64,000 nucleotides of DNA from positions 62,001 to 126,000 of the forward strand of contig WHVA01000305.1 in the NCBI GenBank assembly GCA_015179125.1. The letters run 5' to 3'. A program made the position numbers and the translations under genes. The DNA comes from Gautieria morchelliformis (Eukaryota > Basidiomycota > Agaricomycetes > Gomphales > Gomphaceae). A model generated the notes under the pieces. It had not been told where the DNA came from. It saw nothing but the letters and a program-made list of their open reading frames with translations, and ran no database searches. Position 1 is the first letter of the stretch. Each line of letters opens with the position of its first letter. Positions 6,477 to 45,420 of this stretch are shown one piece after another.

Positions 6477-7642
6477 TGGGTGTTCTTGGGTTGCTTATTC
6501 TTGGTGCTATTATCAGTGAAGTGGTATGTCCCTGTGCAGACTTTGTATGGATAGCATAAACTTATATTACTGCATGTAGTATGAGTCTGTTTTGGACAAC
6601 TGCAATCCTACTAGTTCACAATTGAATACAATAGCCTTGTCAGTACTGACTAGGACTTTCTGGCTAGATTAACACTGAAAAATTCATCAGGTGTAATATC
6701 TATGGACTTGTATTTGTCCAATTTGTCTCTGAATACCTTTGACAGTGGTCACCGTGAATGGTGTTGCTGTAATCCTTTTTGACACTGGAGTTGTCATAAT
6801 AACCATTCTGAGCTCAATTCAAACCCTGAGGCTTTGGCGGAAAGGTGAGATTTGGGATAAGAGATCTCTCATTAGTCTAGTGATTTACCAAGGTGAGCAT
6901 GCAACATATTGCTTATATATATGAACATATCACTAATCTACAGATAAGGCTTTGTCAGATATGGGTATGGAACATTATTCCTATGGTATTGCATATGTTG
7001 ATTCATATTCAGCTTTGTACTCACCATTACTGTAGCTACTACTATCACAACTAAGGTCTTGTTGCTTATAAACATGTTGAGCTTTGAGAGCTTACTCCAT
7101 CTTCTTTTACATTTCAGGTATTGAGGGTATGTAAGACATTGAACCTGATATAAAAATGGCTAACTTCAGCTGCTTTATGGTATAAAGCAAAGCATTTCTG
7201 GTATCGTGAGCTGGCTTCAGAATGGGTATCTTCTCAGCAAGTTCAGAAGAAAGACATATGATTGTACTAACAGTGCACATACAGCTTGTCAACAATTATC
7301 ATTTGCCGCTTTCATCTAACTCTCAAAGAGAGACACAGTCAACTTAACAGCCCCTCATTACCCTCTCTTTCATTCACCAGCTTCCAGGCAGCCAGACAAA
7401 GTGTTCACAATGCTATAGTGGCTGAATTTGGGAACCCTCACTTGAGCCGGGAGGATTTCAATGCTGAGAATTTGGAGGACAATGTGGCTGATCAGGAAGG
7501 CCAGCAGTCACCTGAGCAGGCTGGGTCAGCTGGGATAGAGTTGGATGAGTTTCCTCACAGGACTGGATGTCCTGGAGATGTAGAAATGGCTGGGCAGATC
7601 ACCTCTGGTGAGCAGTTAGTGTCTCTTTCAGGCACTGGTTAA
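6477..7642 (+). pseudogene. DUF6533-family gene, 3'-half copy A
   Basis: This is the 3' half of a multi-exon gene repeated at 19.8, 33.3 and 42.5 kb. One exon encodes VAVILFDTGVVIITILSSIQ and TLRLWRKGEIWDKRS, a transmembrane segment followed by the basic loop typical of agaricomycete DUF6533 proteins. The last exon (about 7391-7642) encodes an acidic tail with FNAENLEDNVADQEG and stops TAA. The N-terminal DUF6533 domain is missing: homology begins inside an internal exon (GVLGLLILGAIISEV in other copies). It is nearly identical to 19.82-20.98 kb, with only a handful of differences over 1.1 kb, so duplication was recent. It should be non-functional without its 5' exons. The protein's role is unknown. 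Confidence 0.65.
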
Positions 7643-8050
7643 TGGTTCGATAGGATCTGGAAGAATGGCAGAGGCTTAATGACAGCATCCAAGCCAATGC
7701 ATCATAGCTGTGCATCCAATGCAAAACCCCTAGCAGTGCAACATGCAGCAACTTACATCAACCCACCTTTCTAATCTATTGCAGCACTTGGAGAATGGTC
7801 ACCATAGAAGATATGCCTATCTGCTCACTCTGGCCAACACATACAATTAAAAACCTGTGGACACATATATATTCTGTACCATTTCAAATTGACTTTGTTC
7901 ATAATTTATTATTACTGTGCTTTGTGAAAATATTGTTCCTAGTTTGCTGCTGAGAGTCAGTCAACTGCATGCAGATTCGAGTATTGCATCCTCCTGGGAA
8001 ATGAACTGCGTGTAGTGTGTGCCCTGGATACTGATCTGGTGAAGTAGTGC
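7643..8050 (+). repeat. Module tail (partial) after copy A
   Basis: Sequence downstream of the DUF6533 stop, shared with 20.98-21.18 kb and the other copies (GGATCTGGAAGAATGGCAGAGG). Homology to the + copies ends near 8000. From about 8060 the sequence matches the module head in inverted orientation, so an inversion-type junction lies within 8000-8060. Confidence 0.6.
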
Positions 8051-8059
8051 ATGCGGATC

Positions 8060-8850
8060 AGTGTGGTGTAGAGCTGTTCCTGGTGGCACAGGAAGCTACT
8101 GAGGTGATCTGCAACGTGTTTGCAGTTTTATTTAGTATGATATTACATATTTGAATGACGTCGGTATTGGACCTCCTCTGACATGGTTTTTTAGTGCTAT
8201 CTTGGAACACCCGTATGCAATATCTGGTTGGACTCACTGTTAAATATATTATCTGTATACACAGCACACTTCCCTCGAATTTCGTGTAGTTCCTTGCATT
8301 GCCTTATCGACCGGATACTGATAATTCTGAAGCAAGAGAGCATCGTGCGTGGTTACATCAGGATGTTGGCAAAGCCACTCGCACCACACCAAACAAAGAC
8401 ATGCACACCGACGGCAGGGCTCCATAGTTACAACGAGCAGCATGACACGGACAGAGACACAGACCCAACAAGCCTGACACCGTCGTCGTCGCGCGGTACG
8501 TGCATGTCGTCCCGTCCATTCTCCCCGCACTGCCCTATATCTCAGGCCATGTTTTACTCCTCTACTCCAATAAACAACATTTCACCTCCAACTACACAAC
8601 AGTGACAGCCTGCCCTCCCAGACTTCACATCTCCCACCGTCCGCTACCGCCCACGGACATGTACTCATAATGATGCTCCCTGTGTGTCCGACTGTCACCC
8701 GATCTTCCAGGGCGAAGGGCCACGTCTTAAAACCAGGGGGTATGGACATCATGTTAAACGCGGGAGTAAGCGGCGTGTTTGTCGGTGGGGACATGTGCAT
8801 GTGCATGTGCTCGGTGTGCAAGAGCTCCACAAGCGCACGTACGTGAGCGA
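8060..8850 (-). repeat. Module head, inverted copy (intergenic part)
   Basis: It matches 36.41-37.06 kb in the same orientation and 17.9-18.4 kb in reverse complement. Shared anchors are GATCTGCAACG...TTTAGTATGATATTA, TATTATCTGTATACNCAG and CACCAAACAAAGACATGCACACCGA. It corresponds to the spacer between the DUF6533 gene and the GC-rich gene. I see no ORF of its own. Confidence 0.65.
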
Positions 8851-9186
8851 GTGTCGGACGGAGAAGGTGGCTCGGTACAAGCGCCTGCTAGTTTCGAGCA
8901 GGCCGAACCAACACGGCGCAGTAGGAAGCACGCGGGGCCCATCACCCCGAACGCCGAAACCTGGAGTTGCTGGTGCTGTGATGGAAATGAGCTGTATTCG
9001 CGTGCGGGTATGAGCAGTGATGTGCATAAGCTGAGAAGGGTATGTATGGAGGAGGCGGAGCGAGCGTATTCCCCGTGGCCTTCCCCGGAGAAGGTATTCG
9101 TGGCGTTGGATACCCGGTACATGCGCACTCTGTCATATCTCTGGACCATGTGGAGCACCCATGTCCGGAGGAAGGAAGAGAAATAG
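8684..9186 (+). pseudogene. Possible diverged remnant of the GC-rich module ORF
   Basis: The segment occupies the position where the inverted head should carry the GC-rich gene. Short overlapping frames contain a cysteine-dense stretch (TCACACARCARAP) and SPWPSPEKVFVALDTRYM before a stop at 9184-9186. Similarity to the other GC-rich copies is weak beyond the cysteine-rich start, and the downstream half is absent or unrecognisable. A different short gene cannot be excluded. Confidence 0.25.
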
Positions 9187-9489
9187 TAAACACCCCCCTA
9201 CCCACCCACCCACACCTCAATTAATGCTCACGCTCGAGGTCCCCAATCCTCGCTCCATCACCCCGCCCTTCTCAAACGTTTACCCCATCATTCCCCAACT
9301 ATGGTGTTGCCCCCTCTCTATACCCGCAAAATAACCCCTGCATCCCAATCCACGCGCTCATGCCAATCATCCCGTCCTCATCGTGCGCTGTTCCGCGGTG
9401 TGGCATTCGTTCGTGGACGCAGAGCTGATGCGCAGGTACGTGGTGGCGAAGCACGAAACAGCGCTAGATCCGAAGAAGGAAAGCGTGGG

Positions 9490-10020
9490 AGCATGGGACC
9501 TAAATTACGGAGTCCGCCCTAATCCGAGTCAGGAACTCGAATTGCATCGGCCAGGGTCAGAATCTACGCGCATAGCACGTCGGAGAGTCGGAGCTAGCGC
9601 TGGGAGATCGTGCGACGGAGATCTTTCCGAATCAAGGTGTGGCAGTGGCGGTGTGATCTGACAAGAACAAGTACTTTGCGAGACGTGTGGCAAACGACGA
9701 GTGCGGTGAACTGACCTACAGACACTGCCTCGGAAATACAACTACACTTATGACACAAGTTACAACTTGAATTCAAGCAAAAGCGCACCGCGCTGTCTCG
9801 TCCTGGGACATAAATAAATCAGGCACCGTTGCTCTGTCTGGTGCCTGATCCGAGTCGGGAGCTCGAATTGCGTCGGCCATGGTCAGGAACTAGCGCTGGG
9901 AGATCATTCCGAATCGAGATGTGGCGGTGGCGGTGTGATCCGACAGTACCATGTGGCAAACAACTGTAAAGTGACCTACAGACTCTGACTCGGAACTACA
10001 GCTATACGTATTCATCTTAG
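9490..10020. repeat. Duplicated ~170-bp regulatory-like repeat
   Basis: Two related copies (about 9590-9750 and 9885-10000) share AGCGCTGGGAGATC, CGAATC(A/G)AG(G/A)TGTGGC(A/G)GTGGCGGTGTGATC and TGACCTACAGAC. A third copy lies in reverse complement at about 38450-38640, at the equivalent place in the second super-copy. This is the spacer region between the two inverted module heads. Between the two copies is a hairpin at 9818-9849 with 10-bp arms (ATCAGGCACC / GGTGCCTGAT). Confidence 0.6.
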
Positions 10021-10180
10021 TAGGACAACTTGACTTCAAGAGCAAAAGCGACAGACAAAGGCTCGTAACGGTCAACAACAACATTACTTGTTACTCTTTG
10101 TCTTTCGATAATGTCTCAGCGGGTTTCGCTAACACAGAACTGTTGTCTCGGTCTCGCACCTAACGTTAGCAGATGACATT

Positions 10181-10192
10181 AACAGATGTCTC
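10181..10192. repeat. LINE target-site duplication, left
   Basis: The 12-mer AACAGATGTCTC is repeated at 16207-16218 just after the LINE poly-A tail. Its first two As overlap the tail, so the strict duplication is at least 10 bp (CAGATGTCTC). Confidence 0.8.
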
Positions 10193-10279
10193 GAAGTGAC
10201 CTCGTTTTTTCTCACGCTTACCACCACCACCAAACTAAAAAAATACCAATCCACGCCCACACACAATCAACTGCAGTAG

Positions 10280-12007
10280 CTAGCTCCTCGAAAACAGATC
10301 CTAGACGCAGCACCAAAAGCTCTACAGAGAAAAACCCAAAAAGGGTCATGCCGTCCAACGCAAGACCCCCAGACGACAGCCGTGACGCCAACCCCTCGAA
10401 CGAGAGCCAACAGTCAGCAGGCGAGCGTCAGAAGCAGAGCAGACTTGCTGGCAGACCCGTACGCTGCGGTCCGCAACAAAGAGCAAGCTAGAGCCTTCCT
10501 CGACAGGCACGGTTTCCTCGCCAAGGACGCCCCTGCCATCCCAGACCAACTCAGCTACGTATTGCTGTCCCTAGCACACAGCTCCTCGGGCAAGACTATG
10601 GAGGAGGGCGTCAGGGCCGTAGCCATATTAATGGTCGAGGACGCAGCAAGGGAAGCCAGCAAAGCAATACTGCAGTACGTGGAAGAGAAATTGGCGCCCG
10701 TGCTCACCAAGCTCGACACTGTCGTGGAGTCGGCGCGAGAAGTCACGGATGCCACCAAAAGCATCACGGAGGAGGCGAGTCTGGCGGTCGAGGAAATATG
10801 CAGCGTGCAGAGAATAAGAAGCGAGATTAGGGAAGAGAACGCGGCAGGGACGACGTACGCAGCTGCGTTAAAAGGTAACGTACCCCTCTCCCACCCCAAC
10901 AATCTAGCCAGGGCGAAAGCCCGGGAGTGCCAGCTGCTAATAGACAAGGACCCCGCGACGGTGCACAACGCGCTCGACAAACTCACAGAACAGGAGCTGG
11001 TAGCGAAAGCCAACGAAGCTATAGCACAGATCGCGGACCCCCACCAGCAGATGGAAGTCGGCTTTGTGGGAGCAAAAATCCTGGCGAACGGCGGAGTTGT
11101 GTATGAGCTCAACAGTTCGAGCGCGGCCGCCTGGGTACAATCAAACAAGAAAGCTTTTGCAGAGAAGCTGGGGGGGACCTCGGTCGTCAAGGACCGAGCC
11201 GTATCAGTCCTGATAGAATACGTACCAGTAACACACTCACCCGAAGCCATGGGCGAACTCAGGAAAATAGAGAGAGACTCGAAATTGGCAAGCGGCACCC
11301 TGATCTCGACCAGATGGATCAAACCAGAGAGCAGAAGAATGCAAGGGCAAAGGTCGGCACACCTAATAGCTAAGTTTTCATCTATAGAATCGGCCAACCT
11401 AAGCATAAGGGACGGGCTAATCATTTCAGGAAAACGCGCGTGGGCCAGGCGGATGAAGAGAGAACCAAGGCGCTGCCTAAAATGTCAGAAACAAAACGCA
11501 AGACACATGGCAGCGGACTGCAAGGGAGAGGATACGTGCGGAACATGCGCCAAAGGCCACAGAACGGCGGAGTGCGAAGAAATCGACCCGGCCCGCTACA
11601 AGTGTGTGAACTGCGACAAGGAAGGCCACGCATCGTGGGACCGAACATGCCCCAAGTTTGTAGCGGCATGTCAGACGATAGAGAGCGCAGATCCGGAGGG
11701 AACATACAAATACTTTCCCAACGAGCAACCGTGGACCTGGGAGCAACACAATCAGACAGGCCCAACCACAGACACAGACGAGACCACCCAACGAGTCAAC
11801 ACCGCATTCGTCAGGAGCAGCGCTGAGCAACGACCACAAGAGAGCCGCAGATGGAGCCACAGAGAAGGAAGAGAAGTGGGAAGCAGAAGCAGGAGTAGGC
11901 CCAATACAAACCCGACGCTGGGGCACAGAGATCAGGGGTGGACAAGCGGCGGAACAAGGCAGAGGACTCTAGACGAGTACGAGCAAGGGCGGACCGACCA
12001 AACATAA
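10280..12007 (+). CDS. LINE ORF1: gag-like RNA-binding protein with zinc knuckles
   Basis: Nucleic-acid-binding protein of the LINE, expected to coat its RNA and help assemble the retrotransposition particle. Numbering from the GTG at 10382, residues about 70-155 look coiled-coil (KLDTVVESAREVTDATKS). A gag-like core follows (EYVPVTHSPEAMGELRKIER, TRWIKPESRRMQG). Three CCHC-type knuckles lie at about 364-430: CX2CX6HX4C, CX2CX3HX4C and CX2CX4HX6C. The frame is open from 10280 but has no ATG until about codon 74 (LAHSSSGKTMEEGV). The ATG at 10348 lies in another frame, which is open from 10186 to 10491. Either translation begins elsewhere or a one-base indel separates the true start from the body. 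The stop is 31 bases before ORF2. Confidence 0.85.
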   Translation, partial: LAPRKQILDAAPKALQRKTQKGSCRPTQDPQTTAVTPTPRTRANSQQASVRSRADLLADPYAAVRNKEQARAFLDRHGFLAKDAPAIPDQLSYVLLSLAHSSSGKTMEEGVRAVAILMVEDAAREASKAILQYVEEKLAPVLTKLDTVVESAREVTDATKSITEEASLAVEEICSVQRIRSEIREENAAGTTYAAALKGNVPLSHPNNLARAKARECQLLIDKDPATVHNALDKLTEQELVAKANEAIAQIADPHQQMEVGFVGAKILANGGVVYELNSSSAAAWVQSNKKAFAEKLGGTSVVKDRAVSVLIEYVPVTHSPEAMGELRKIERDSKLASGTLISTRWIKPESRRMQGQRSAHLIAKFSSIESANLSIRDGLIISGKRAWARRMKREPRRCLKCQKQNARHMAADCKGEDTCGTCAKGHRTAECEEIDPARYKCVNCDKEGHASWDRTCPKFVAACQTIESADPEGTYKYFPNEQPWTWEQHNQTGPTTDTDETTQRVNTAFVRSSAEQRPQESRRWSHREGREVGSRSRSRPNTNPTLGHRDQGWTSGGTRQRTLDEYEQGRTDQT

Positions 12008-12038
12008 CCGACGGAGACAACCACGCCACACAACTTTA

Positions 12039-15000
12039 ATGACCGAGGTGGACAACGGAATAACACAATTGCGGATCAGACAACAGAACGCCAACAGGTC
12101 ACTGACGGCCACATCCGACATACTATCGACAAGCACGCCGGACAAATACGACATAATTGCAATACAAGAACCGTACATAGACTTCCTAGGAAACGCTCGA
12201 GCAACACCGAACTGGTACACGGTCTACCCAAAGACACACTACATAGACAGACAAAAGAGGACGAGAGCCACTATCCTAGTCAACAAAAGGATCGCAACCA
12301 ACGCATGGGCGGCAATAGATGTCGGCACGCCGGACGTCACAGCAATCAGAGTGAAAACAGGCGTAGGCGACATCACAATAGCGAACATTTATTGCGACTG
12401 CAACAACTCCGACAGCATACAAGCAATGAAGACATTCATGCGAGCACAGGTTATGTCGAGAGTCGACAGACAGACCGATGCGGGAATGATATGGCTGGGC
12501 GACTTCAACCGCCATCACCCGCAATGGGACGAAGAACGGAATAACCACCTATTCACAAGAAGCAACCTGGATGACGCCCAGCTGTTAATATATACGACGG
12601 TGGAGTGGGGACTGCATATGGCGCTGCCCAAAGGCATCCCAACGCTAAGAGCCATGTCGACAGGCAACAATACGCGCACAGACAACGTTTTCCTCACACC
12701 TGATTTAATAGAAAGACTAACACAATGCCACACAGTACCGGAAGACCAACCTACGAAAAGTGATCACTACCCAATCGACACAACGATCGAAGTCAAGGTG
12801 GAGGCTGCGAACACAGTGCAACAACGGAACTACCGACAGGTAGACTGGAGACAGTATAATGAAGCACTCGAAGGAAGACTAAGACAGGCCATAACTGAAC
12901 CAAACCCGATAGACAAGCAGCATTTCTCACAAATTCTAGAAGTGATGACTGACGCGATCACACAGACGACGGAAGAACTAGTCCCGGTAACGAAGCCATC
13001 CCCATTCATGAAACGCTGGTGGTCCAAGGAACTAGCTCAGCTAAGGAAGGAAGCCAGACGAGCAGGTAGGAGAGCCTATCAACTCAGAGGCGATCCGACG
13101 CACGAGGCACACCAAAAATACAAGAAGGCTAGGAACAAGTACGCGGAAACGATAGAGAAGTCCAAGCGAGAACATTGGGAGGATTTCCTGGAGAGAACCA
13201 ACCAGTCAACGGTATGGACAGCACACAAATATGCATCCGCCGACCCCTCGGATGGGGGACGAGCAAGAATTCCGACGCTATCAACCAAGCGCAGCAATGG
13301 CACCGCATGGGTTGCTGACACGAATGAGCAGAAGGCTGAGATGCTATTCCACACATTCTTCCCAGAACCAACCAACGACCCCGCAACGTACTCGGACGAA
13401 CAGCAATACCCGCCAGAAGCTTTTGAGTACACCGGCATACCGGATGAACAGATACGGCGAGCGGCGGAGAAGTTAAACTCGTTCAAAGCGCCTGGCGCCA
13501 ACGGTATCCCCAACGCAGTAATAAAGCAATGTATTGACGTACTGTTGCCCTACATAGGACCCCTGTTCCGTGCCACCTTCGAGCTGGAAGTGTACCCGGC
13601 CGAATGGAAAGACTCAATCACAAAAGTATTGAGAAAGCCGGGGAAAAAAGACTACTCGATCCCTGGCGCCTATAGACCAATCGCTCTACTTGACACGCTA
13701 GGCAAAGTACTATCAGCATGCGTAGCGGAGGACATGGTCAAGATGGCAGAAAGGTACCTTCTACTTCCAAACAACCAGTTCGGGTGCCGCCCGGGGCGAA
13801 CGACTACAGACGCCATACATTATATGGTGGGAGCAGCTAAGGATGCGCGGCGCAGGGGAAAGGTATTGGGGATACTGTTCCTAGACATAAAGGGCGCCTT
13901 CCCGAGCATCATGCTTAGGCGGCTCGTACACGACATGCGTACGAGAGGGGTGCCCCAAGAATATGCGGAGTGGATTCAAAGGAAGGTAGATGGGAGACTC
14001 ACATCGATGCAGCTAGATGACTATGGCACACCAATGCGCGAGATAGGGCGAGGCATGGACCAGGGATGCCCCCTATCCGCGATAGCCTACCAGTTCTACA
14101 GCGCCAGCCTGGCCGAAACTACGCATGGGAGAAAGGGCGAGGATTGCATCAGCTTCGTTGATGACACCACGATAATGGCGGAAGGAACCGACCTAAGGGA
14201 AGCGTTCGACAAGTTGGTGCACATCATGACAAGGCCAGGGGGAGCACTCGACTGGGCGAAATCACATGACTGCACTTTCGCGGTTGAAAAGTTTGCGCTC
14301 ATGGGGCTAACCAGACGACGTGAACCAGATCCCGCCAGACCAAGGAAAACCAAGCCGCTGACCAGACCGTCGATAAAGATCGGCCACCACGTCATCCAAC
14401 CGGTGTCATCGCATAAGTTCCTCGGAGTCATAATCGACCAAGAGCTGCGCTTCAAAGAGCATGTGAACTACGCGCTCCAGAAAGGCAGTAAATTCCTAGA
14501 ACAGTATGGCAGGCTGGCAAGGCCGTCAAAGGGGATACCAGCTAAGCATATGCGCCAATACTATCTCGCGGTAGCGGTCCCAAGACTACTCTACGCAGCT
14601 GACGTGTTCTTAATACCAGGCACAGCGCGGAAAAAAGGAACAAAAGGCTATATAAACAAGCTAGCTAGAGTTCAAAGGCAGGCAGCGATAGCCATAACTG
14701 GAGCTATGAGAACCCCGGCAGGTGACCTGCTTGACGCGCACGCAAACCTACTGCCCTTCCACCTGCTGGTTGACAAAGTAATACACAGGGCCGCCACGCG
14801 ACTAGCATGTCTCCCAGACAAGCACCCCCTGTCCGCGAAGATACAGAGAGCCGCCTCGAGGTACGTGAGGAGACACAGAACACCGCTGCACGAAGTCATG
14901 CACACATATGGATTGCAACCGGGTAGAATGGAGAAAATACAAACGGTATGCAAGGGGCCGAAATGGGCCCCAGCCTTCCAGATCAGGATACCGCCAGATG

Positions 15001-15980
15001 AAAAGAAGGCGATAGCAGAGATGGAAGCGGATACAGCGCGGGTGCAAGTATTCTCAGATGGATCCTGCGTAGATGGCGGAGTGGGAGCGGCAGCAGTCTT
15101 ATTCAGAGATGGCAAGGAGGAGAAGGCGGTAAGACTCTACCTAGGCACTGACCAAGAACACACAGTGTTCGAGGCCGAGTTGATAGGAGCGGCGATGGGA
15201 GCGAAGCTGTTATACAGCGAACGCAGCACGAGATACGTCATTGGCACAGACAGTCAGGCAGCCATACTGACAACGAGGAAAGAGAAACAAATGTCGGCAC
15301 AGTACTTGGTTGAGGCGCTGCACAGACAAATAGAAGGAATCAAGAATAGGCAGCCGAATACCACGATAGAGATGAGATGGACGCCAGGGCATAAGGGAAT
15401 CAAGGGGAACGAGAGAGCAGACGCAGAGGCGAAGAGAGCGGCGAGGGGGGAGAGCAGCGAAGAGATTTTCATCCCCATCGAGTGCAGAGGAGAGCTGCCA
15501 CTGAGCAAAGCAGCCGAGCTACAGAGATTCAAGGTCGAGCTCAAGGGAAAGGTCAGAGACACATTCGCCAGGTCCCCGAGGTCGGAATACGCACATCGAA
15601 TCGATAAGACCATGCCGTCCCCAGCATTTGCAAGATTGACAGCGGGCATGGCGCGCAGACAGGCGGCGATCCTAATACAGCTTAGAACGGGCCACATATC
15701 GCTCAACAAGCACCTATACAAGATAGGGAAAGCAGACTCGCCCACGTGCACAGCATGCAAACGAACAGACGAAACGGTACACCATTTTCTGTTTCGATGT
15801 CCAGCATACAGGGAGCAGAGAAAACAACTCGAGCACTCACTGAGGAGGAGCGCGAAGGAGCTCAGCACGCTGCTAGCCAGGCCGAAAGCGATGAAACCGC
15901 TATTCAAGTACATAAGAGGCACAAGCAGATTTGAACAAACACACGGGAATTTGGAGACAAGGGAAAGAGGCGGGCGATAA
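12039..15980 (+). CDS. LINE ORF2: endonuclease / reverse transcriptase / RNase H polyprotein
   Basis: A 1,313-residue protein that nicks target DNA and primes reverse transcription of the element RNA. Residues about 10-245 are an exonuclease-endonuclease-phosphatase domain with QQNANRS, IQEPYIDF, WLGDFNRHHPQW and SDHYPID. Residues about 475-760 are the reverse transcriptase with FKAPGANGIP, YRPIALLDTLGKVL, NQFGCRPGRTTTDA, LDIKGAFPS, GMDQGCPLSA and the catalytic FVDD at about 706. Residues about 1003-1135 are RNase H with FSDGSC, FEAELIGA, TDSQAA and MRWTPGHKGIKGNERADAEA. A terminal cysteine/histidine motif lies near 1236 (CTACKRTDETVHHFLFRC). All key residues are present and the frame is uninterrupted. 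The ATG follows ORF1 by 31 bases in a different frame. Confidence 0.95.
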   Translation: MTEVDNGITQLRIRQQNANRSLTATSDILSTSTPDKYDIIAIQEPYIDFLGNARATPNWYTVYPKTHYIDRQKRTRATILVNKRIATNAWAAIDVGTPDVTAIRVKTGVGDITIANIYCDCNNSDSIQAMKTFMRAQVMSRVDRQTDAGMIWLGDFNRHHPQWDEERNNHLFTRSNLDDAQLLIYTTVEWGLHMALPKGIPTLRAMSTGNNTRTDNVFLTPDLIERLTQCHTVPEDQPTKSDHYPIDTTIEVKVEAANTVQQRNYRQVDWRQYNEALEGRLRQAITEPNPIDKQHFSQILEVMTDAITQTTEELVPVTKPSPFMKRWWSKELAQLRKEARRAGRRAYQLRGDPTHEAHQKYKKARNKYAETIEKSKREHWEDFLERTNQSTVWTAHKYASADPSDGGRARIPTLSTKRSNGTAWVADTNEQKAEMLFHTFFPEPTNDPATYSDEQQYPPEAFEYTGIPDEQIRRAAEKLNSFKAPGANGIPNAVIKQCIDVLLPYIGPLFRATFELEVYPAEWKDSITKVLRKPGKKDYSIPGAYRPIALLDTLGKVLSACVAEDMVKMAERYLLLPNNQFGCRPGRTTTDAIHYMVGAAKDARRRGKVLGILFLDIKGAFPSIMLRRLVHDMRTRGVPQEYAEWIQRKVDGRLTSMQLDDYGTPMREIGRGMDQGCPLSAIAYQFYSASLAETTHGRKGEDCISFVDDTTIMAEGTDLREAFDKLVHIMTRPGGALDWAKSHDCTFAVEKFALMGLTRRREPDPARPRKTKPLTRPSIKIGHHVIQPVSSHKFLGVIIDQELRFKEHVNYALQKGSKFLEQYGRLARPSKGIPAKHMRQYYLAVAVPRLLYAADVFLIPGTARKKGTKGYINKLARVQRQAAIAITGAMRTPAGDLLDAHANLLPFHLLVDKVIHRAATRLACLPDKHPLSAKIQRAASRYVRRHRTPLHEVMHTYGLQPGRMEKIQTVCKGPKWAPAFQIRIPPDEKKAIAEMEADTARVQVFSDGSCVDGGVGAAAVLFRDGKEEKAVRLYLGTDQEHTVFEAELIGAAMGAKLLYSERSTRYVIGTDSQAAILTTRKEKQMSAQYLVEALHRQIEGIKNRQPNTTIEMRWTPGHKGIKGNERADAEAKRAARGESSEEIFIPIECRGELPLSKAAELQRFKVELKGKVRDTFARSPRSEYAHRIDKTMPSPAFARLTAGMARRQAAILIQLRTGHISLNKHLYKIGKADSPTCTACKRTDETVHHFLFRCPAYREQRKQLEHSLRRSAKELSTLLARPKAMKPLFKYIRGTSRFEQTHGNLETRERGGR

Positions 15981-16183: not shown

Positions 16184-16208
16184 CAAAAAAAAAAAAAAAA
16201 AAAAAAAA
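16184..16208 (+). other. LINE poly-A tail
   Basis: An uninterrupted run of more than 20 As ends the element directly before the right copy of the target duplication. Confidence 0.85.
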
Positions 16209-16218
16209 CAGATGTCTC
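16207..16218. repeat. LINE target-site duplication, right
   Basis: AACAGATGTCTC, identical to 10181-10192. Confidence 0.8.
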
Positions 16219-19107: not shown

Positions 19108-19191
19108 CACCTGGCGCGATGTGCTACTCCAACCCCACATCGCTACGCACAATAGTCCCTCGTGTGCATCCCAGATTTTCTGGCTTATATC

Positions 19192-32755: not shown

Positions 32756-32810
32756 CACTACCTTGTCTCCAGCCCCGCTCTCTTTCTTTTCTCGTGCGTT
32801 AGCTTATGTC

Positions 32811-33080: not shown

Positions 33081-33099
33081 TTGATGTCATTTCCTATCA

Positions 33100-35275: not shown

Positions 35276-35284
35276 TAATTGGGA

Positions 35285-35658: not shown

Positions 35659-37189
35659 GATATATGAAAGACACAATGGGATGCAGACGAGAGAGCGTAG
35701 CGATGTGGGGTTGGAATAGCAGATCGCGCGAGGTGCATATATAAGATTCTGGCCATGTGTGCTGCCATGTCAACAGATATTCACAGCAGCCTATATCAGT
35801 GCCGTAGCATGGCACCATCTGCGCTGCGGATGGGTCTGATAGAAGAACATCATATGTAAAAGAATTAAAGGTAGTAATACAACGCAGAAGCATCGGATAA
35901 GTATAGTTAGCTGCTCGGGCGAGCAATTGAGGCCTGCCAGGAATTGGTTATTACATCCGATTTTCCTGGGCGGAATGGTCTCCAAAATTCATCTAAACCT
36001 TGTCGTCGTGAGCACAATTAGCACTCATTGACGACTCATAGTGAAGTGTCAGCATAACGGCACACGAAAACACTACGATAAAGCTCACCGATGTGTATTA
36101 AGATGGCGCATCTCTAGTGGTTTACTAATGAAGCCGAGAACAGGAGGAAGCGTGATCCTATGGGAGATCTAGCTCGGTCAGCTCAATCACCAGAGTATGC
36201 ATGCATGTGGCTGTAATTGTTAACGATGCTGGATGTGGCGACATGAGACAACTCTTATTCGGGAGGCATGTCCTGTACAAAGAAGTGGTATGAAGGGACT
36301 ATTGAATTTAAACTTGGAGCACAACAACATGGTATCCGCGAGGCTGAGCATTCTGTCTATCGCATGTGACGGTGATGCAGAACTGTGCTCGGTGGCCGAG
36401 GAAAGCCCAGGAAGTTACTGAGATGATCTGCAACGTTGTTGCATTTTTGTTTAGTATGATATTATTAGAATGGTAACAGTGCAACCTAGCCAGAATAAAC
36501 GGTATGGAACGTCCGCCTGTTTTTGCAGTCATTAAAATTTAACTATTGGTCTGGCATGTTTTCGCAATCATTCGATTATTCAGATTGGAAAAAATTGTAC
36601 CTGTCGTGATCGAAGCATGTCAGCTCCCTTGGTAACTGGCTGGATCCAGAGTTAAATATAAAAAACATTATCTGTATACCCAGAAAATCTCCATCGAACT
36701 TCGTAAACACTTATCGACCGGATACTGATAATCCTGAGCGAAGTGTGGCTTCGTCGTGCCACGGCGACATCAGGAACCCACCAAACAAAGACAAACATGC
36801 ACACCGACTCGGCAATTACAACGAGCAGCATGACAGACACGGACACGGACAAACTCTGACGTCGCCGTTGCATGGTACGCACATGTCATCCCTCTACTCC
36901 CTCGTCTTCCACGGCATTACCAACCATTTTACCTGTCTACTCCAAACGCCAGTTCACCTCGCCTCACATGACACTAACAGCCTCCCTCCCAGGCTTCTTA
37001 TCACCCACCGCCCTCTCCAGCGCACGGACATGACCTTCTAAGGATGTTTCCGGTGTGTCTGCCAGTGGTGGGGTGTGTGTGTATCTGTCGGGTGTAGAAA
37101 AGGCCGCAAGAGGAACGAGGGAACGAACGGAGTATATGTTATTCCCATAGAAACAACCCGTCCATCCTGCATGACGCGTTTACCACCAC
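35659..37189 (-). repeat. Inverted module head: divergent intergenic region
   Basis: Reverse complement of the spacers at 17.8-19.19 kb and 40.4-41.85 kb, and parallel to 8.06-8.85 kb. Together with 38.82-41.85 kb it forms one arm of a large inverted repeat. No independent gene is seen. Confidence 0.65.
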
Positions 37190-38338
37190 GTTTCGCCATC
37201 CACCCATCCGGCAGCCTGGCCTAGACCCAGACACGAACAGCGACCCTGGAGACGCGGATGGTACGTCCCGTTTCCCAGTCCCTCATGTCGCTTACCGAGC
37301 GCCACCCGCTGCTCCCTAGAATTCACCCTCCCGCCCTTCACGTCCTGCCCCTCCCTCCCACCCCGCAACGGGCCCTTCCCGCACGACCCGCACGCCCACC
37401 GCGGCTTCCCCGCGGAGGGCGCGCGCTGCCAGTGCAAGGCGTGTTCCCGGGGCGAGCTCGAGAAGAATCGGCACCTGGAACGCGAGCGCGGCCGCTGCGC
37501 GTAGCGCGGGACGTCGGCGTGGTTCGGCTGGCAGGACCGCGCGTTTTTCGGGGGCGGGGACGCGGCCGGGAGCGTGCTCAAAGGCGGCCGGGTGCGGGAC
37601 GACTGCGACACCCCCAGACGGCGGGACTTCTTCAAGATGACTCCCGCGCGGGAGTTCAGCGGCGCGGTCGAGCGCGAGTTTCGTGTCGGCGGGGAGCGCG
37701 TGCGTGCGATTGGCGTGGCGGCGCCCGGGCATGGGCCCCCCGCGAATTGGCACAGGGTGCTGTGGCTGGAGAGCGTGGCCGACGTCGATGCGTCGCTGCG
37801 CCTCTCGCCGGGGGCCGCGTGCGCGACGCACGTGAGCACGCGCGATTCGCCCCCGGGTCGTCGCGGCGGAGCACGGCCATCCTGGCCCGCCGTACATCAC
37901 CGCACCCCTGCACACACACGCCGCCGCCGCCCACAACAACTACATCTGCACCCGCAGCGCCACAGATGCCCCGCAAGCCCCCTTACCCGCGCCCACCACC
38001 ACCGCGGTTATCCGCCCGCCTCCCAGAGCCACCCAAACCCCGCCGCCGCCATGCCGGCAAATGCACGAGCCGCGCCTTCGTGCACCTGCCCACCACGCGA
38101 CTCGGGAACGGGAACGGGAACGGGAACGGGAACGGGAACGGGAACGGGAACGGGAACGACCCCGCACAATGTGTACCCCGCCCACAAGCTCCGCCCCCGC
38201 CCCCCGCCCCACGCGCACGCCTACCTGGGCTCGCCGCGCTCCCCACGCCCGCATGCACACCGTGACCCGCTGCAGTACTTGAGCGCTAACGCAAACGCAA
38301 ACGCAAGCCACACCACGCTCGCCTGCGCCAGCTGTTAG
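37190..38338 (+). CDS. GC-rich module ORF, inverted copy (uncharacterised)
   Basis: Plus-strand counterpart of 16.6-17.8 kb and 39.2-40.4 kb (both minus). The conserved frame reads FTLPPFTSCPSLPPRN, GPFPHDPHAHRGFPAEGARC with the cysteine motif CQCKAC, then SRGELEKNRHLERERGR. After a break it reads VLKGGRVRDDCDTPRRRDFF, GAVEREFRVGGERVRAIGVA and LWLESVADVDASLRLSPGAA. The longest open frames (37258-38265 and 37574-38338) both run into a GGGAAC array at 38101-38155, which translates as Gly-Asn or Gly-Thr runs and is not meaningful. Gene borders and introns are unresolved. Protein family unknown. Confidence 0.4.
38101..38158. repeat. Hexanucleotide array (GGGAAC)n
   Basis: About nine perfect GGGAAC units. 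The homologous sites in the other copies (16.82 kb and 39.41 kb) have only two or three GTTCCC units on the other strand, so the array expanded in this copy. Confidence 0.85.
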
Positions 38339-38344
38339 AGTCAC

Positions 38345-38820
38345 GGGTCCTGGGCTGGGGCGTGGGGCGGGGCCTGCTGTGGGGGTGACGAGTCTGGTGC
38401 CCGTGCGGTGGCATTAGGCACATTCATTAAGGCCTGGGTGCGTGGGTGTGTGGTATAAGGTATGCGGAAAGTTGTAGTTCCGAGTCAGAGTCAGTACGTC
38501 ACTTTACCGCACGCGTCGTTGGCCACACGCTGATCAAAGTACTGAGTTTGTTCTTGTCCAATCACACCTGGGCCGCCACCGCCACATCTCGATGCCGAAC
38601 GATCTCGCCCGATCTCCCAGCGCTAGTCCGACTACGCATAGGTGCCTGGAATCAGGGACCCGGGACTCGGAGGCAAGGATGCGCGGGAACGACGTTGCCA
38701 CGGTGTTTCGGTGAATTGATGATTGGTGTACTAGTGTATTGGTGGAGTTGGGGTATTGGGTTGGGAATGTAGGGATATGACAATTGCGAGCACCACGAAG
38801 CTTGAGAGTCGAGACAGAGA
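38345..38820. other. Spacer between inverted module heads
   Basis: It separates the minus-oriented head (35.3-38.45 kb) from the plus-oriented copy D (38.82 kb on). It includes one inverted copy of the ~170-bp repeat of 9.59-10.0 kb (38450-38640). In the first super-copy the equivalent spacer received the LINE. Confidence 0.55.
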
Positions 38821-39203
38821 TAGATACCATAGTACGCGAATACAACACATTACACGCTACGCGTGGCGCGACACACGATGCACGATTCGTATCCACACTC
38901 CCACCCCACCCCCATACCCCACTAGTCTATGGTCTAGTCGAGCCGCCGCGGCGCAGGTCGGCAGCACGTTTCCTCCTCCCCTTCCCTCCCCATGCGCCCC
39001 TCCTGAATCGAATACCGAGGACCCCCGGGCCCGGGGCATGTACCCCGCATCACATCATGATAACGCTCCCGTTGCTCTTGCTTTGCACATACCTCATACC
39101 TCATACCCACAGACCTAGGCATCCCACGCACCCAAGCCCTAATAAATGCGCCTAGTGCCATCGCAATAGCACCAGACTCGTCACCCCCACACCAGGACCC
39201 ACC

Positions 39204-40430
39204 CTAGGACCGGTGACCGTGACAGGCCTTGGTGCAGGCGTCGCGATGGAGGGGAGCTTGTTTGAGCTGTGGTTCGGGTTCGTGTGTGTGAGGCTGGGGA
39301 GGAGGCGACCCCGCGAGCGGGTAGGCGTGGGCGTGAGCGTGGGCGAGCGCGGGAGGAGCATGAGCGAGTGGGGTGGGGTACGCGTTGGGCACCGGCGCGG
39401 GTCCGTTCGCGTTCCCGTTCCTAGGAGGCGTGCGGGGCGGGATCACGAAGACGCGGTTCGTGTATTTACACGCGGGTCGGCGGGGGGGGGGGGGCTCTGG
39501 GAGGGAGGGGGCGGACAAGTGCAAGGGTGCGGCGGCGGTAAGGGGGTTTGCGGGGCCTGTGTGGCGCTGCGCGTGCGCCTGTAGTTGCTGAGGGCGGCGG
39601 CGGCATGTGTGTGCGGGGGTGCGGGGATGTGCCATGCGCCAGCATGGCCCTGGTCCACCGCGGCGACCAGGGGAGCGACGCGAACATGTGTTCACATGCG
39701 TCGCGCACGCGGACCCTAGGTGAGAGGCGGAGCGACGCGTCGACGTCGACCGCGCTCTCCAGCTCAAGCCCCAGCCACAGCCCCAGCCCACTGCCCCGCT
39801 TCACGGGGGGCTCTTCCCGGGCCCTGCCACGCCAATGGCGCGCACGGGCTCCCCGCCGACATGAAACTCGCTCTCGGCCGCGCCGCTGAACTCCCATGCT
39901 GGCGCCGTCATGAAGTACTCCCGCCGTCTGGGGGCGTCGGTGTCGTGGCGCGGCCGCCCGCATTTGAGCACGTGCAGCGCGCCCGTCCCCGCCGTCGAAA
40001 AAGGCACGCTACTGCACACCAAACCATGCATAGCGGCCGCGCTCGAGCGCGATCCGCCTATTCTTCTCAAGTTCGCCCAGGGCCCACGCCTCGCACGGGC
40101 AGCGCGCGTCCCCCACGGCGAAGCCCCCCGCGTCCCGGTGGGCGTGCGGGTCGTGCGGGAAGGAGCCGCCGCCGGGGAACAAGTTGGGAAGAGCTTCAAG
40201 AGCTCGTGCCATGTGGGCGAGGGCGGGCAGTGTCCGCCGCGGGGTGGGAGATCGGTGCGGGACGTGAGGGGCGGGAGGGTGGAGTCTAAGGAGCAGCGAG
40301 TGACGTTCGGTAAGCGACACGAGGGACTAGGCAACGGGACGTACCGTCTGCGTCTCCAGGGTCGCTGTTCGTGTCTGCTGGTGGATGGATGGATGGCAAG
40401 ACGTGGTGGAGAAGGCAGTAAACGCGTCAT
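39204..40430 (-). CDS. GC-rich module ORF, copy D (uncharacterised)
   Basis: The minus-strand frame matches the other two copies: SFPHDPHAHRDAGGFAVGDA, RCPCEAWALGELEKNRR, VLKCGRPRHDTDAPRRREYF, then GAAESEFHVGGEPVRAIGVA and VDVDASLRLSP. The second cysteine of the CxxC pair is Trp here, unlike the other copies. As in copy B, the downstream part is proline-rich (for example LPEPPPPRRPACKYTNRVF). The gene is GC-rich against an AT-richer DUF6533 partner, from which it is divergently oriented. Exon limits are approximate and the family unknown. Confidence 0.4.
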
Positions 40431-41790
40431 TCAGGATGGACGGCCTGTTTATATACAAAGGGAAATACCGCACACTCCGCTCGTTCCTCTTGCTGGCCTT
40501 TTCTATACCCAGCACATACACACACACCCCACCACTGGCAGACACGCTGGAAACCCAATGAGAAGTTCATGTCCGTGCGCTGGAGAGGACGGTGGGTGAT
40601 AAGAAGCCTGGGAGGGGAGGCTGTTAGTGTTATGTGAGGGGAGGTGAACTGGGGCTTGGAGTGGACGGGTAAAACGCGTGGTGATGCTGTGAAAGATGAG
40701 GGAGTGGAGTGATGACATGTGCGTACCATGCAACGGCGATGACGACGTCAGGGCTTGTTGGCTGTGTCCGGGTCCGTGGCTCGTAACTGCCGAGTCGGTG
40801 TGCATGTTTGTCTTTGTTTGGTGGGTTCCTGATCCGCGCACGACGGAACCTCACTTCGCTCGGGATTATCAGTATCCGGTGTGTGAAATGGGGATGTGCT
40901 GTGTATGTCGATAATGTTGTTTATATTTGACTCTGGAGCCAACCAGTTACCAAGGGAGCTGACATGCTTCACGACAGCTACACATTTGTCTGATCTGAGT
41001 TAAAAACTGCCAGACGTCCAATACCGTTTGTTCTCGCTAGGTGGCACTGTCGTCATTCTAATAATAGCATGCTAGATAAAACAACAGACACGTTGCAGAT
41101 CACCTGGGTTTTCCTGGGCACCGGGCACAGCTCTACATCACCGTCACAGCGGGTACACTGAATGCACAATATCGCGGCTACCAGTCGTTGTGCCCCATGT
41201 CGAAATTCGAGGTCTCGTGATATGACCTCTTCCCACGTCAGGACGTGTCGCCGAAATGAGAAATTTGTGCTGTCGCTATATCCAACAACATTGACACGAG
41301 CTAGTATGCCTGCAGAGCCCATCCAACGTCGCTTTAGAATCACAGACACATGCAGACGCTGGCGACTGAGCTGGACAGCGGAGATGTCTCATATCATCTC
41401 GCTTTCTCGTGTGCCCATCTTTATAAGTAACACCGGATCGGCTTCATCTTAATAGCCATCAGTGAGCTTTGTTGCAGTTGATTTTCATGTGTCATTATGC
41501 TGACACCGCACTTGAAGTCGTCAATGAGTGCCAAGTGCGCTTACATGACATCAATTTTTATATGCATTTTCGAGACCATTCCGCGGATGTAATAACTAGT
41601 TCCTGGCAAGAAGCCAAGGCTCAATTACTCGTCTGAGCGGATCACTGTATCTGATGCTTCGACCTTGTATTAACTCTTTTTACATGACGTTCTTCGATCA
41701 GACCCACCCACCTTCCAAATTGAGCCATGCTTCGCACTGATGGGATGTTGTGAATATCGGTTGACCTGGCAGCACCCATGGCGAGAATCT
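40431..41790. other. Divergent intergenic region of module copy D
   Basis: Conserved with 17.8-19.1 kb. A TATA-like TATATATG at 41791 keeps the same distance (about 60-65 bases) from the ATG at 41854 relative to this copy's shorter leader. No extra gene seen. Confidence 0.45.
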
Positions 41791-41853
41791 TATATATGCA
41801 CCTCGCGCGATCGTTATTCCCTTGTCTGCATTCCAGTCTTTCTTTCTTATATC

Positions 41854-43652
41854 ATGTCTCAGGTGGACCCCTCGGCTGAATTCCAGGTGCTATCAGACTA
41901 GTACGTACTTACCACATTGAGTGGGATGCAGAAAAACTTACTTGAAGTAGCTTTGCGGTCGACTCTACCATCGTCGCAGCGCTTGGTATGCGTACATATC
42001 CCCCATCTAAGTCCACAATTTCCATAGCTTGTTATCCAGCACTGCTCATCTACGACACTCTTCTCACACTACCATCTGAGATCAAGCATATTTGGTGCAA
42101 GACCGTCAAACTCGGCACCATTCTATATTTATTCGCTCGTTACCTGCCCATGGCTTTTTTTCTTCTTGCGATATATCTTGATATATATAATGTGTCCATT
42201 GAGGTATATTACAACAACGCTCTCATGTGTAACACCCTTACTGATTGGAATGAGTATCTAGTATGACTTGCATTCCTTATGAAGAAGCAACCTAGAGACT
42301 CATATGTTTGAAGGAAATGTAATACTATCGGTCGCCTAACTGATGTTGTACAAGGTCTTTCTCTGATTGGTGTACAGGGTGAGTGATTATACCCATATAT
42401 TTCTCAGGCAGAAGGATCAACACATTTTATTATCTAGGCCTTCTGCTAGCTCGCACCTATGCTATTTCCCTTCAGAATCAAAGAGTTTTGGGTGTTCTTG
42501 GGTTGCTTATTCTTGGTGCTATTATCAGTGAAGTGGTATGTCCTGGTGCAGACTTTGTATGGATAGCATAACCTTATATTACTGCATATAGTATGAGGCT
42601 GTTTTGGACAACTGCAATCCTACTAATTCACAATTGAATACAATAATCTTGTCAGTACTGACTAGGACTTTCTGGCTAGATTAACACTAACAAATTCATC
42701 AGGTGTAATATTTATGGACTTGTATTTGTCCAATTTGTCTCTGAATACCTTTGACAGTGCTTACCATCACCAATGTTGCTGTAATCCTTTTTGACACTGG
42801 AGTTGTGATAATAACCATTCTGAGCTCAATTCAAACCCTGAGGCTTTGGTGGAAAGGTGAGATTTGGGATAAGAAATCTCTCATTAGTCTAGTGGTTTAC
42901 CAAGGTGAGCGTCCAACATATTCCTTATATATATGAACATATCACTAATCTACAGGTAAGGCTTTGTCAGATATGGGTATGGAACATTATTCCTATGATA
43001 TTGCATATGTTGATTCATGTTTAGATTTGTGCTTACAATTACTTTGGCTAATGCTGTCACAATTAAGGTATTGTTACTTATAAAGACATTGAGCTTTGAG
43101 GGCTTACTCAGTCTTCTTTTACATTTCAGGTATTGAGGGTATGTAATACATTGATCATGATAAAAGAATGGCTAACTTCAGCTGCTTTATGGCATAAAGC
43201 CAAGCCTTCAAGCCATCTTAGGCGAGCTTCAGAACAGGTATCTTCTTACCAATTTAACAAGAAACACATGACTGTACTAACAGGGCATAAGCAGCTTATC
43301 AGTAATTATCATCTGCCGCTTTCACGTAACTCTGAAAGAGAGACACAGTCGACTTAACAGCCCCTCACTACCCTCTCTTTCATTCTCCAGCTTCCAAGCA
43401 GCCAGACAAAGTGTTCACAATGTTATAGTGGCTGAATTTGGAAACCCTCACTTGAGCTGGGAGGATTTTAATGCTGAGAACTTGGAGGACAATGTGGTTG
43501 ATCAGGAAGACCAGGAGTCACCTGAAGAGGCTGGGTCAGCTGGGATAGAGTTGGATGAGTTTCCTCACACAACTGGATGTCCTGGAGATGTAGAACTGGC
43601 TGGGAAGATTGCCTCGGGTGAGCAGTTAGTGTCTCTTTCAGACACTGGTTAA
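41854..43652 (+). pseudogene. DUF6533-family membrane-protein gene, copy D
   Basis: Same exon series as copy B. The start is MSQVDPSAEFQVLSD, followed here by an in-frame TAG where copy B continues, so either an intron begins earlier or the copy is dead. The domain exon reads PALLIYDTLLTLPSEIKHIW and FARYLPMAFFLLAIYLDIYN. Later exons encode LGLLLARTYAISLQNQRVLG and LLILGAIISEV with a GTATGT donor, then FDTGVVIITILSSIQTLRLW. The acidic terminus (FNAENLEDNVVDQEDQESPE) ends TAA at 43650-43652. The GAIISEV exon is complete here, unlike copy B. Predicted multi-pass membrane protein, function unknown. Confidence 0.6.
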
Positions 43653-44515
43653 TGGTTCAGTAGGATCTGGAAGAATGGCAGAGGCTTAATGATAGCATCC
43701 AAGCTAATGTGTCATACCCATGATTCCAATACAGACCCACTAGCAGAGTAACATCCAGCAACCTATGTGGCTATCTGCTCACTCTTGCTGACCCATACCA
43801 TCAAAAACCCATAGATACATATATATTCTGTGACATTTAAAATTTGCCTCTCTTCGTAATTTATTTGAATTGCGGTGGACTTTGGGGGCCTTGCGTATTT
43901 GTGAGTGGTTTAGGTATAACGGCCGGCATCTGGCGAGACACCTGCCTGCCAAAAGAGAGTGCATAGACAGCCCGTGGAATGAAAAGTATGCTAAGTGGAA
44001 GTCCAAGGAATACATGTACTCTAGAGAAAATCCAGGGCAGGATCAGGGGGCTCGCAGCTCATGGCAATAAAAAACCCAGTGGGAACGCCATGAACCCATG
44101 ACCCCCTCGAATAACCTGTCAGACGGAAGTATGCAAGACCCTATTGTGATGCTCATGAGTATCAGAAATGTTTGGCCTGGATGGAGCCCGACATCACATT
44201 AAATTGAGAGCGCGACGTACCTGATAATGATGGACACTGATATTCCCATCGCACGCGTAGCATAGCGTATATTTATACTCCATGCAAGCGCCATACAGTC
44301 TGGATGCGCATGAGTATACGCAGATGTGCCAAAAGCTCCTAAACTCACCGCACTTCACTCTAAATTTTGAGTGATGGATAAGTATCCTTTCACGCTCATA
44401 TTCTTACTTGCTGGGAATGAGCCAAATCGGGATGTGGATAAATTCAATCACCAGTACCACTGAACACTGATGAGTTCAAGTATGGAAAATAGATTAATTG
44501 TGATGGAATAAAATA
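43653..44515 (+). repeat. Module tail, copy D
   Basis: It matches the tails at 20.98-21.66 kb and 34.43-35.27 kb. The last 140 bases (GGATAAGTATCCTTTCACGC onward) are also present, inverted, at 63.15-63.30 kb. Confidence 0.65.
43900..44070 (+). CDS. Small conserved tail ORF (copy D)
   Basis: Reads RECIDSPWNEKYAKWKSKEY and ENPGQDQGARSSWQ with the same TAA as the copies at 21.2 and 34.65 kb. No family recognised. Confidence 0.3.
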   Translation, partial: CEWFRYNGRHLARHLPAKRECIDSPWNEKYAKWKSKEYMYSRENPGQDQGARSSWQ

Positions 44516-44700
44516 GAGGGTGGGACATTTCTACTTCTGAATATGCTGCAACAGCTTTGAGACAGAGTGACCTAGAATATTGGCTCCTGTGAAATGTTCT
44601 ACAGATATAGCAAACAAGATGGATTACCTGAACCTCCAAGAACATGCGGCTGACATGACTTATTCCGTCATCGTCATGTCACCCATTTGCAGCCGCGAGA
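44516..44700 (-). repeat. Module-end repeat E, copy 2 (inverted)
   Basis: Reverse complement of 33.10-33.29 kb and 62.98-63.15 kb, joined on its left to the module tail and on its right to ORF Q. Confidence 0.7.
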
Positions 44701-44732
44701 TAAGGCTGTGTGTTGACAGGAAATTGCGTCAA

Positions 44733-45420
44733 CTATGATTGCACCACCACATATGCCTCGCTCATGTCTCTCTCTGTCAGAAATTTGAGGCATGCCAGTG
44801 CAACTGCTACCCAAAACCTGGGATCAACACCCAGCTGGCCCTCAATCCCCTTGTTGATCCCAAGCCATCCCGTAGTAAGCATGAAGAGCGTTGGCGTGCG
44901 GTCCATGAAGGTTAAGAGTGGTGCAGTCATATTTCCCACCTGGGGCAAGGATGGTGCGAGCCTAATTGACATGGTCGATCGAATATGAAAGGATGGTGTG
45001 ATGTAAGCTAACGCAGCAGAAAAGAAAGAGAATGGGGCTGGAGACAAGGTAGTGGATGTAGGAAGGGGTAAGGGTAGAAGACAAAATGTGTGACAGTGGT
45101 GGGATTCTGGGGCATGATTGCGTGTAGCCTTGCTTTTATTTCATGAGGGGACGGTACTGAGAGGGTCTGAGAGGAGGATGGTGATGGTGAAACAGGTGGT
45201 GTAGGCGGGTATGGGTGCGTGTTAACATTGATGCCTGGTGACGCTTTCTCCAGTGTAGGCCGCCAAGTGTGTACTGAAAATCCCAGTGTTCCATCGAGAT
45301 GCTCAGGTGCCCTAATGGTTGGTATAGTCCCCACAGTCACAAAAGCTGGGGCTGGCTTTGTGGCTGGTGGAATGAGAGGAATGAATGTGCCTGGTGGGAA
45401 GGATGAGGATCGGACTTGAA
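44733..45420 (-). CDS. ORF Q, copy 2 (uncharacterised, two exons visible)
   Basis: On the minus strand an upstream proline/serine-rich frame (from about 45420) runs through HLDGTLGFSVHTWRPTLEKA and PPTPPVSPSPSSSQTLSVPS to IMPQNPTT. A GTCACA...CGTTAG intron-like stretch (about 45100-45016) follows. The second exon reads MSIRLAPSLPQVGNMTAPLL, TGWLGINKGIEGQLGVDPRF and WVAVALACLKFLTERDMSEA, ending TAG. This exon is conserved with 32811-33080. The first exon has no counterpart there. It could belong to an element of which the module end is part. Function unknown. Confidence 0.45.

Follow-up and report, generated by a model that had tools for sequence, protein, structure and literature searches.

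What are the repeated modules in a stretch of the genome of Gautieria morchelliformis, an ectomycorrhizal false truffle of the Gomphales (genome: PMC7550596)? This stretch, hereafter the window, comprises 64,000 nucleotides (C344:62001-126000, in a 122-Mb assembly of 1113 contigs), and positions are counted from its first letter. An original prediction, made from the letters alone, described two copies of a composite unit with the same inverted layout, in which a GC-rich open reading frame (ORF), the head, is joined to a DUF6533-type gene and to a tail with small conserved frames. It proposed either a large, undescribed mobile or amplifying element or a subtelomere-like segmental duplication carrying host membrane-protein genes. 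From sequence comparison, the repeats of the window are most likely DUF6533 membrane-protein genes that lie next to each other and belong to a large expanded family. The finding appears to be mostly gene-family duplication with two local rearrangements, and its unexpected part is a step in CpG content: the bodies of many DUF6533 genes are nearly emptied of CpG, while the first exons and the head are spared. To the whole reading (a DUF6533 family, ordinary duplication and long-term gene-body CpG methylation), we give a probability of about two in three.

An expanded DUF6533 gene family

The repeat matches in the window are far beyond chance, and self-BLAST reproduced those of the original prediction. 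Tails match in direct orientation (6477-7692 with 19823-21031 at 97%; 33286-35295 with 42504-44514 at 87%), heads in inverted orientation (35295-38446 with 39123-42217 at 70.5-73.9%), and the main units 17581-21669 and 40223-44362 are alike at 84%. Block A, downstream of the tail, forms an inverted pair (32740-33284 and 44526-45067, 84%). The second block of repeats is therefore close to a palindrome, A / tail / head(-) / head(+) / tail / A', of which the left tail alone is reversed. The further inverted end that had been predicted was found again at 62977-63426; it probably belongs to a minus-strand DUF6533 gene body outside the window (C344:128159-129297), about 2.6 kb away.

The presence of a DUF6533-type gene in the unit was confirmed with the PF20151 profile (curated cut-off, 24.1 bits), which two exons of the window exceed: 42021-42152 (C344:104021-104152) with 47.7 bits and 19374-19493 (C344:81374-81493) with 47.1 bits. 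In unit 2, the gene has its ATG at 41854 and its stop codon at 43652, with short exons between them; exon borders were read by eye, and one middle exon is uncertain. At least 150 PF20151 exons are present in the genome (a lower bound, 150 of 637 candidates having been scored, all 150 over the cut-off), and units lie on many contigs among the matches listed, which are not totals. This distribution supports the predicted segmental duplication carrying host membrane-protein genes. The draft protein of unit 2 has 31 relatives, from Gautieria, Ramaria, Sphaerobolus and one metagenome, the best-scoring being a Gautieria sequence with 54% identity. Five homologues display 7-11 hydrophobic stretches on a simple scale, and the proteins would be seven-helix receptor-like; the AlphaFold model of one of them (P0008) was too poor to use, with a predicted local distance difference test score (pLDDT) of 52. 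A study (PMC10949477) describes SNB1 ('snowball'), a DUF6533 gene, as highly conserved and with seven predicted transmembrane helices. The Gautieria genes resemble it by their PF20151 match, by the several hydrophobic stretches of the five homologues and by their basidiomycete homologues; they differ from it by their number (at least 150 exons), by a GC-rich head in a subset and by a CpG-deserted body in most loci compared.

We read the tail as the body of an expanded DUF6533 (PF20151) gene together with the 3' flank. The small frames of the tail are conserved, as had been predicted, and seem to be exons of the DUF6533 gene. In the sampled parts of three exons, no in-frame stop was found in 13 of 13 copies of the C exon, 13 of 13 copies of the TM exon and 10 of 11 copies of the DUF exon, with ratios of nonsynonymous to synonymous substitution rates (dN/dS) of 0.47, 1.3 and 0.72, respectively.

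The head, judged from its alignments, is GC-rich upstream DNA that ends in the first exons. The GC-rich ORF, presented as a component of the unit, has no coding signature. Among aligned head copies, substitution rates are 0.144, 0.143 and 0.149 over the three codon positions, and 112 of 437 gaps are a multiple of 3. For comparison, the DUF exon shows codon periodicity and no gaps (7 alignments), and the last exon weak periodicity and one gap (7 alignments); the TM exon gave no alignment. Of 7993 candidates scored in a search for homologues of the left head ORF, none was retained, and a Pfam scan of the head ORFs gave one weak match, below cut-off. Because these substitution and gap patterns are non-coding and the homologue search was empty, the ORF was rejected as a gene and is most likely an accident of high GC. 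Of the 150 listed DUF6533 exons, 25 have a head divergently upstream at a distance of up to 4 kb (24 of them within 2.4 kb), compared with 4 of 150 on the downstream side. For 125 of the 150, no match is present in the head list used; the head characterises a subset of the family. In several loci with a palindromic core, the GC-rich head is shared head-to-head with a second gene.

CpG loss along the gene bodies

The ratio of observed to expected CpG (CpG o/e) was followed along nine aligned units (8-9 copies per bin). Each of the thirty 100-bp bins that precede the end of the first-exon block has a value of 0.64-1.35. The last 100 bp before this exon end stand at 0.89 and the next two bins at 0.12 and 0.06. 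Values of 0-0.32 then hold in all sixteen bins to +1.6 kb, the stop codon lying at about +1.44 kb, and the last eight bins return to 0.32-1.17. Individual copies behave alike: the head segments H1 (10/10 copies) and H2 (9/9) range over 0.97-1.17 and 0.83-1.06, the segment E1 over 0.65-0.96 (11/11) and the tail segment T1 over 0.06-0.17 (13/13). Both the stretch just past the exon (I1; 0.00-0.38, 10 copies) and the last exon (0.00-0.23, 13 copies) are depleted.

The same step was observed in DUF6533 loci found by profile score (L010, L011, L013, L014, L015 and L016). When five of eight such further loci were pooled, CpG o/e fell from 0.82 to 0.30, 0.20 and 0.16 at the same place; two of the three others, L009 and L012, have no step, and L015, which has one, was omitted as a relative of L014. 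Locus by locus, CpG o/e is 0.00-0.43 over the 300 bp past the step in 14 of 16 loci, and 0.57-0.98 over the 300 bp ahead of it. In total, the step is present in 14 of the 17 DUF6533 loci compared, with pooled values going from about 0.85 to 0.1-0.3, a count that leaves out L015, judges L031 from body CpG only, and excludes L019 and L020 (counted for T1 only) as well as short extra DUF6533 matches in L013, L014, L015, L016 and L048.

At sites where any copy has CG, the share of TG or CA in the other copies is 0.77 in T1 (0.29 for a GpC control), and 0.39 in E1 (control 0.30), 0.35 in H2 (0.31) and 0.19 in H1b (0.17). As controls outside the family, six short P450 exon pieces, hand-picked among 98 matches, all stand at 0.72-1.23, seven transposable element (TE) ORFs of the window at 0.60-0.94, and two further TE pieces at 0.56 (L044) and 0.60 (L045). 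Among 981 overlapping 500-bp windows, taken from the window and 29 loci selected through a family match, 83 fall below 0.2; 79 of these 83 overlap DUF6533 genes, which touch 174 windows.

Origin of the CpG step

CpG depletion and TpG/CpA excess in the body together with a spared 5' end, by which gene-body methylation is recognised, were all found here. We propose that long-term CpG methylation would have been confined to the gene body, leaving the 5' end and the first exons free, and that 5-methylcytosine past the DUF6533 exon may have decayed to TpG/CpA over many generations. Gene-body methylation is favoured because CpG has given way to TpG/CpA along the body as far as a point shortly after the stop codon, with the promoter side spared. 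Three matches to the methylase domain PF00145 exceed the cut-off in the genome. The likeness to animal and plant gene-body methylation lies in the depletion and the TpG/CpA excess along the body with the 5' end spared; the difference is that, here, one family is concerned and not the six P450 exons, and that the pattern is known from base composition. Two reviews (PMC13297926, PMC7862722) describe gene-body methylation as largely lost from fungi or missing in most of them, exceptions aside, and the former suggests that it was lost perhaps since it mutates coding DNA. Searches of an open-access library showed no earlier report of this CpG pattern.

The step could instead result from repeat-induced point mutation (RIP) or from another homology-triggered process on duplicated DNA, since the family is highly duplicated. 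In Tricholoma matsutake, PMC6980582 reports a CpG-biased hypermutation of repeats, whose identity with RIP its authors leave open. Both fungi show C-to-T loss at CpG in multicopy DNA, but in Gautieria the loss stops at an exon end and spares the duplicated upstream DNA of the same units. An action on the whole duplicated stretch was not found: the heads of the window and of L027 are 93.8% (H2) and 97.7% (H1b) identical, yet their CpG o/e is 0.90-1.03. Moreover, the decay has no TCG preference (T12 C9 A9 G6, against a background of T121 A111 G87 C69), a context that is reportedly preferred by basidiomycete RIP. We thus hold a homology-triggered origin to be unlikely. An ancestral fusion of a CpG-rich 5' part with a 3' part that was CpG-poor from the start would likewise place the step at an exon end shared by descent in the units. 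However, both I1 and the last exon are depleted, and the predominance of TG/CA in other copies at the remaining CpG sites of T1 suggests a continuing decay, which makes a fusion quite improbable.

Many family members bear a mutational scar of the kind left by gene-body methylation, and its 5' limit is defined to within about 100 bp. Should methylation be responsible, these genes would offer a natural system for what recruits methylation to bodies, what halts it on the 5' side and why a membrane-protein repertoire bears its cost. A further idea, which we regard as doubtful, is that targeted CpG methylation of the bodies of this one receptor-like family, bounded sharply on the 5' side where the DUF6533 exon ends, may serve as a heritable control of which members are expressed; fungi would then have an equivalent of the receptor repertoires that are under epigenetic control elsewhere.

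Are the two blocks copies of each other?

Among the six fetched loci, four (L025, L028, L029 and L030) have core, head, first exons, body, 3' flank, A and the next downstream block, D, in succession along one direction. L025 and L029 have in addition an inverted head across the core, and C448:194-214 kb (L026, L027) carries a divergent pair with both bodies correctly oriented. A tree of 13 tail copies, drawn without support values, pairs the tail at 6477 with that at 19811 as sisters (97.1%), and likewise the tail at 42477 with a C448 unit (95.2%). The tail at 33286 forms a long branch, and its best identity, 91.1%, is with a C448 unit.

Around 33286-35295, the left tail of block 2 is bordered by A(-) on one side and by an exon(-) on the other, and about 0.3 kb around intron 1 is absent from it. 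The gene body at 33.3-35.3 kb was probably inverted in place over about 2 kb: a single inversion is favoured because the junction alignments show two breaks in the spacer between the 3' flank (T2) and A, one at A(-) and one where the flipped tail ends, the pattern that one inversion leaves. For block 1, no A match was found left of 6477 and no match to exon 1(-) near 7910. The two super-copies of the original prediction are thus not well explained as copies of each other, since their tails and heads group with C448 units or with a neighbour, and their left tails differ in edges and neighbours. From these alignments, both blocks probably arrived at a similar layout separately. Look-alike blocks would have resulted from later local events, i.e. 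the 2-kb inversion in one block and, in the other, a second copy of the neighbouring tail together with a LINE.

Both blocks could instead descend from one ancestral super-unit with inverted layout, blurred by local gene conversion and deletion. Their parts follow in the same order, the starting points of their left tails in the body lie no more than about 15 bp apart (T1 positions 13 and 28), and the tail at 19811, leaving out 6477, is about as near 42477 (90.8%) as the C448 units (90.7% and 90.6%). However, the left heads are just 66% alike, over 484 bp only in self-BLAST, and the neighbours of the left tails differ on both sides. Across 13 tail and 9 head copies, unit 2 is nearer to a C448 unit in both tail (95.2%) and head (93.8%), and so is the head of unit 1 (90.0%, vs. 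87.7% to unit 2). Such a common origin has little probability in our view. That the inverted layout is an assembly artefact is very unlikely: the assembly is in 1113 contigs, but the window contains no N, none of the other 12 tail copies exceeds 91.1% identity to the flipped tail, which is therefore no assembly duplicate of them, and head-to-head arrangements recur in other loci.

Limits of the units

Homology to the window starts at 36218, 37576, 38639 and 38981 in four loci, and on the right side it ends at 46002, 46191 and 46196, one locus having a further piece to 46305 (these are BLAST alignment limits, not mapped breakpoints). Two candidate ends were rejected: at 46196 the window carries a deletion when compared with other copies, and at 46320 the window diverges, the likeness among other copies going on for about 90-300 bp more, in pieces of 500-700 bp. 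The block A is not terminal, as it continues into D in four fetched loci. The fixed ends expected of an element are thus not common to the copies; boundaries vary, which the original prediction had itself named as telling against an element. Because the homology limits differ between loci, duplication with variable edges is favoured: the gene plus its flanks is duplicated with variable edges, as in segmental or ectopic duplication, and we propose that the units multiplied by ordinary events of this kind. As regards a subtelomere-like position, four TTAGGG units in a row occur on one contig only in the assembly.

A large undescribed mobile element carrying the DUF6533 gene would account for units on many contigs and for the inverted pair A/A' flanking the block. 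In addition, 105 of 130 head loci (from those listed among 161 matches, second matches of the same locus omitted) have none of the 150 listed DUF6533 exons within 4 kb, which is an upper bound, and a dispersed 2.6-kb repeat carries a head piece. Against this stand the limits that vary by locus, A followed by D in four loci and the absence of a Pfam transposase match in three ORFs of the unit, a scan that did not cover every frame. No target duplication was seen at the edges viewed by eye, no systematic search being made. We consider such an element highly improbable; the repeats need no new mobile element, and this false lead is weakened.

The dispersed 2.6-kb repeat (L031 5413-8003, L032 358-2984 and L033 4002-6628) is 98.7-99.9% identical between copies. 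Its ends are inverted (23 nt, 83% complementary), inspection by eye revealed no target duplication, and it contains 440 bp of head at 80% identity. When the head was considered as part of a captured gene, a search with the frames of this repeat yielded scattered matches of partial length. At L045 3956-7700, a head copy adjoins a transposase reading frame, presumably Harbinger-like, and no DUF6533 match was found in L045. Two insertions were observed within units. One of about 320 bp at 45464-45782, in block D relative to other units, belongs to a dispersed repeat (90-94%, many contigs). Another of 0.5 kb, in the 3' part of a unit at L029 2849-3353, is related to 1460-1948 and 61012-61198 of the window.

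Points against the proposed scenario

Several observations weigh against the proposed reading of duplicated genes with methylated bodies. The desert is absent from L009, L012 and L031 (body 0.79), and thus concerns a subset only; the step is weaker in L026a (0.57 to 0.34) and L013 (0.80 to 0.43). The loci are not all independent, the pairs L014/L015 and L013/L016 being 87-89% identical, and 79 out of 83 is no genome-wide rate for loci picked for the family. The P450 control amounts to just six short exon pieces, and a relic outside the family at 24550-25450, transposase-like by reading of its frames, is also CpG-poor (0.22). As regards the genes, only portions of three exons inform on the openness of the frames. 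Two of these exons have a one-base gap in L027, and the count did not take in insertions that the window lacks. One DUF exon has a stop, dN/dS reaches 1.3 in the short TM exon, and the copies at 6477 and 33286 have no 5' end. Finally, the identities of the tail at 19811 to 42477 and to the C448 units hardly differ, and local gene conversion could mask an older shared duplication.

Other features of the window

Table 1. Features of the two blocks and of the further inverted end, in positions of the window
Feature	Position	Strand	Evidence
DUF6533 gene body without 5' end, start of 3' flank	6477..7910	+	97.1% to tail at 19811; CpG o/e 0.10 over 6477-7642
Inverted head remnant (upstream DNA, GC-rich core pieces)	8063..10193	-	Matches H2(-), Gc(-); copies on C448 (85%) and C355 (78%)
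LINE within first block	10382..15980	+	ORF1 10382-12007; ORF2 12039-15980
Unit 1 head: GC-rich core and upstream DNA	16207..19187	+	Alignment; non-coding substitution pattern
Unit 1 DUF6533 gene, approximate limits	19188..20990	+	PF20151, 47.1 bits; CpG o/e 0.08 past DUF6533 exon
Unit 1 gene, 3' flank	20990..21669	+	Alignment
Downstream block A, inverted copy	32740..33284	-	84% to 44526-45067
Left gene of block 2: body (probably inverted) and 3' flank	33286..35295	+	Junction alignments; CpG o/e 0.12 over 33286-34430
Left DUF6533 gene of block 2, first exons	35295..35771	-	DUF6533 exon has a stop
Left head of block 2: upstream DNA and GC-rich arm	35614..38446	-	71.7% (H2) and 70.5% (H1) to right head
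GC-rich core, between divergent genes	38450..39123	.	73-91% over all or part of length in 6 fetched C448, C355 and C206 loci
Right head of block 2, GC-rich and promoter-side, no coding signature	39123..41850	+	CpG o/e 1.03 (H1), 0.93 (H2)
Unit 2 DUF6533 gene	41854..43652	+	PF20151, 47.7 bits; hand-read exons; CpG desert from about 42217 to just past stop codon
Unit 2, 3' flank (T2)	43653..44514	+	CpG o/e 0.59
Downstream blocks A and D, common to other units	44526..46320	+	Alignment; no common end found
Block A and end of 3' flank, further inverted end	62977..63426	-	Self-BLAST; alignment

The LINE of the first block has a CpG o/e of 0.89-0.94. Its ORF2 contains RVT_1, RNase H and endonuclease domains, and its ORF1 (10382-12007) has no Pfam match. 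Self-comparison also revealed direct repeat arrays at 29849-30773, 32446-32754 and 54653-55191. On the minus strand, an ORF at 48885-50093 carries a CxC4 domain associated with KDZ transposases.

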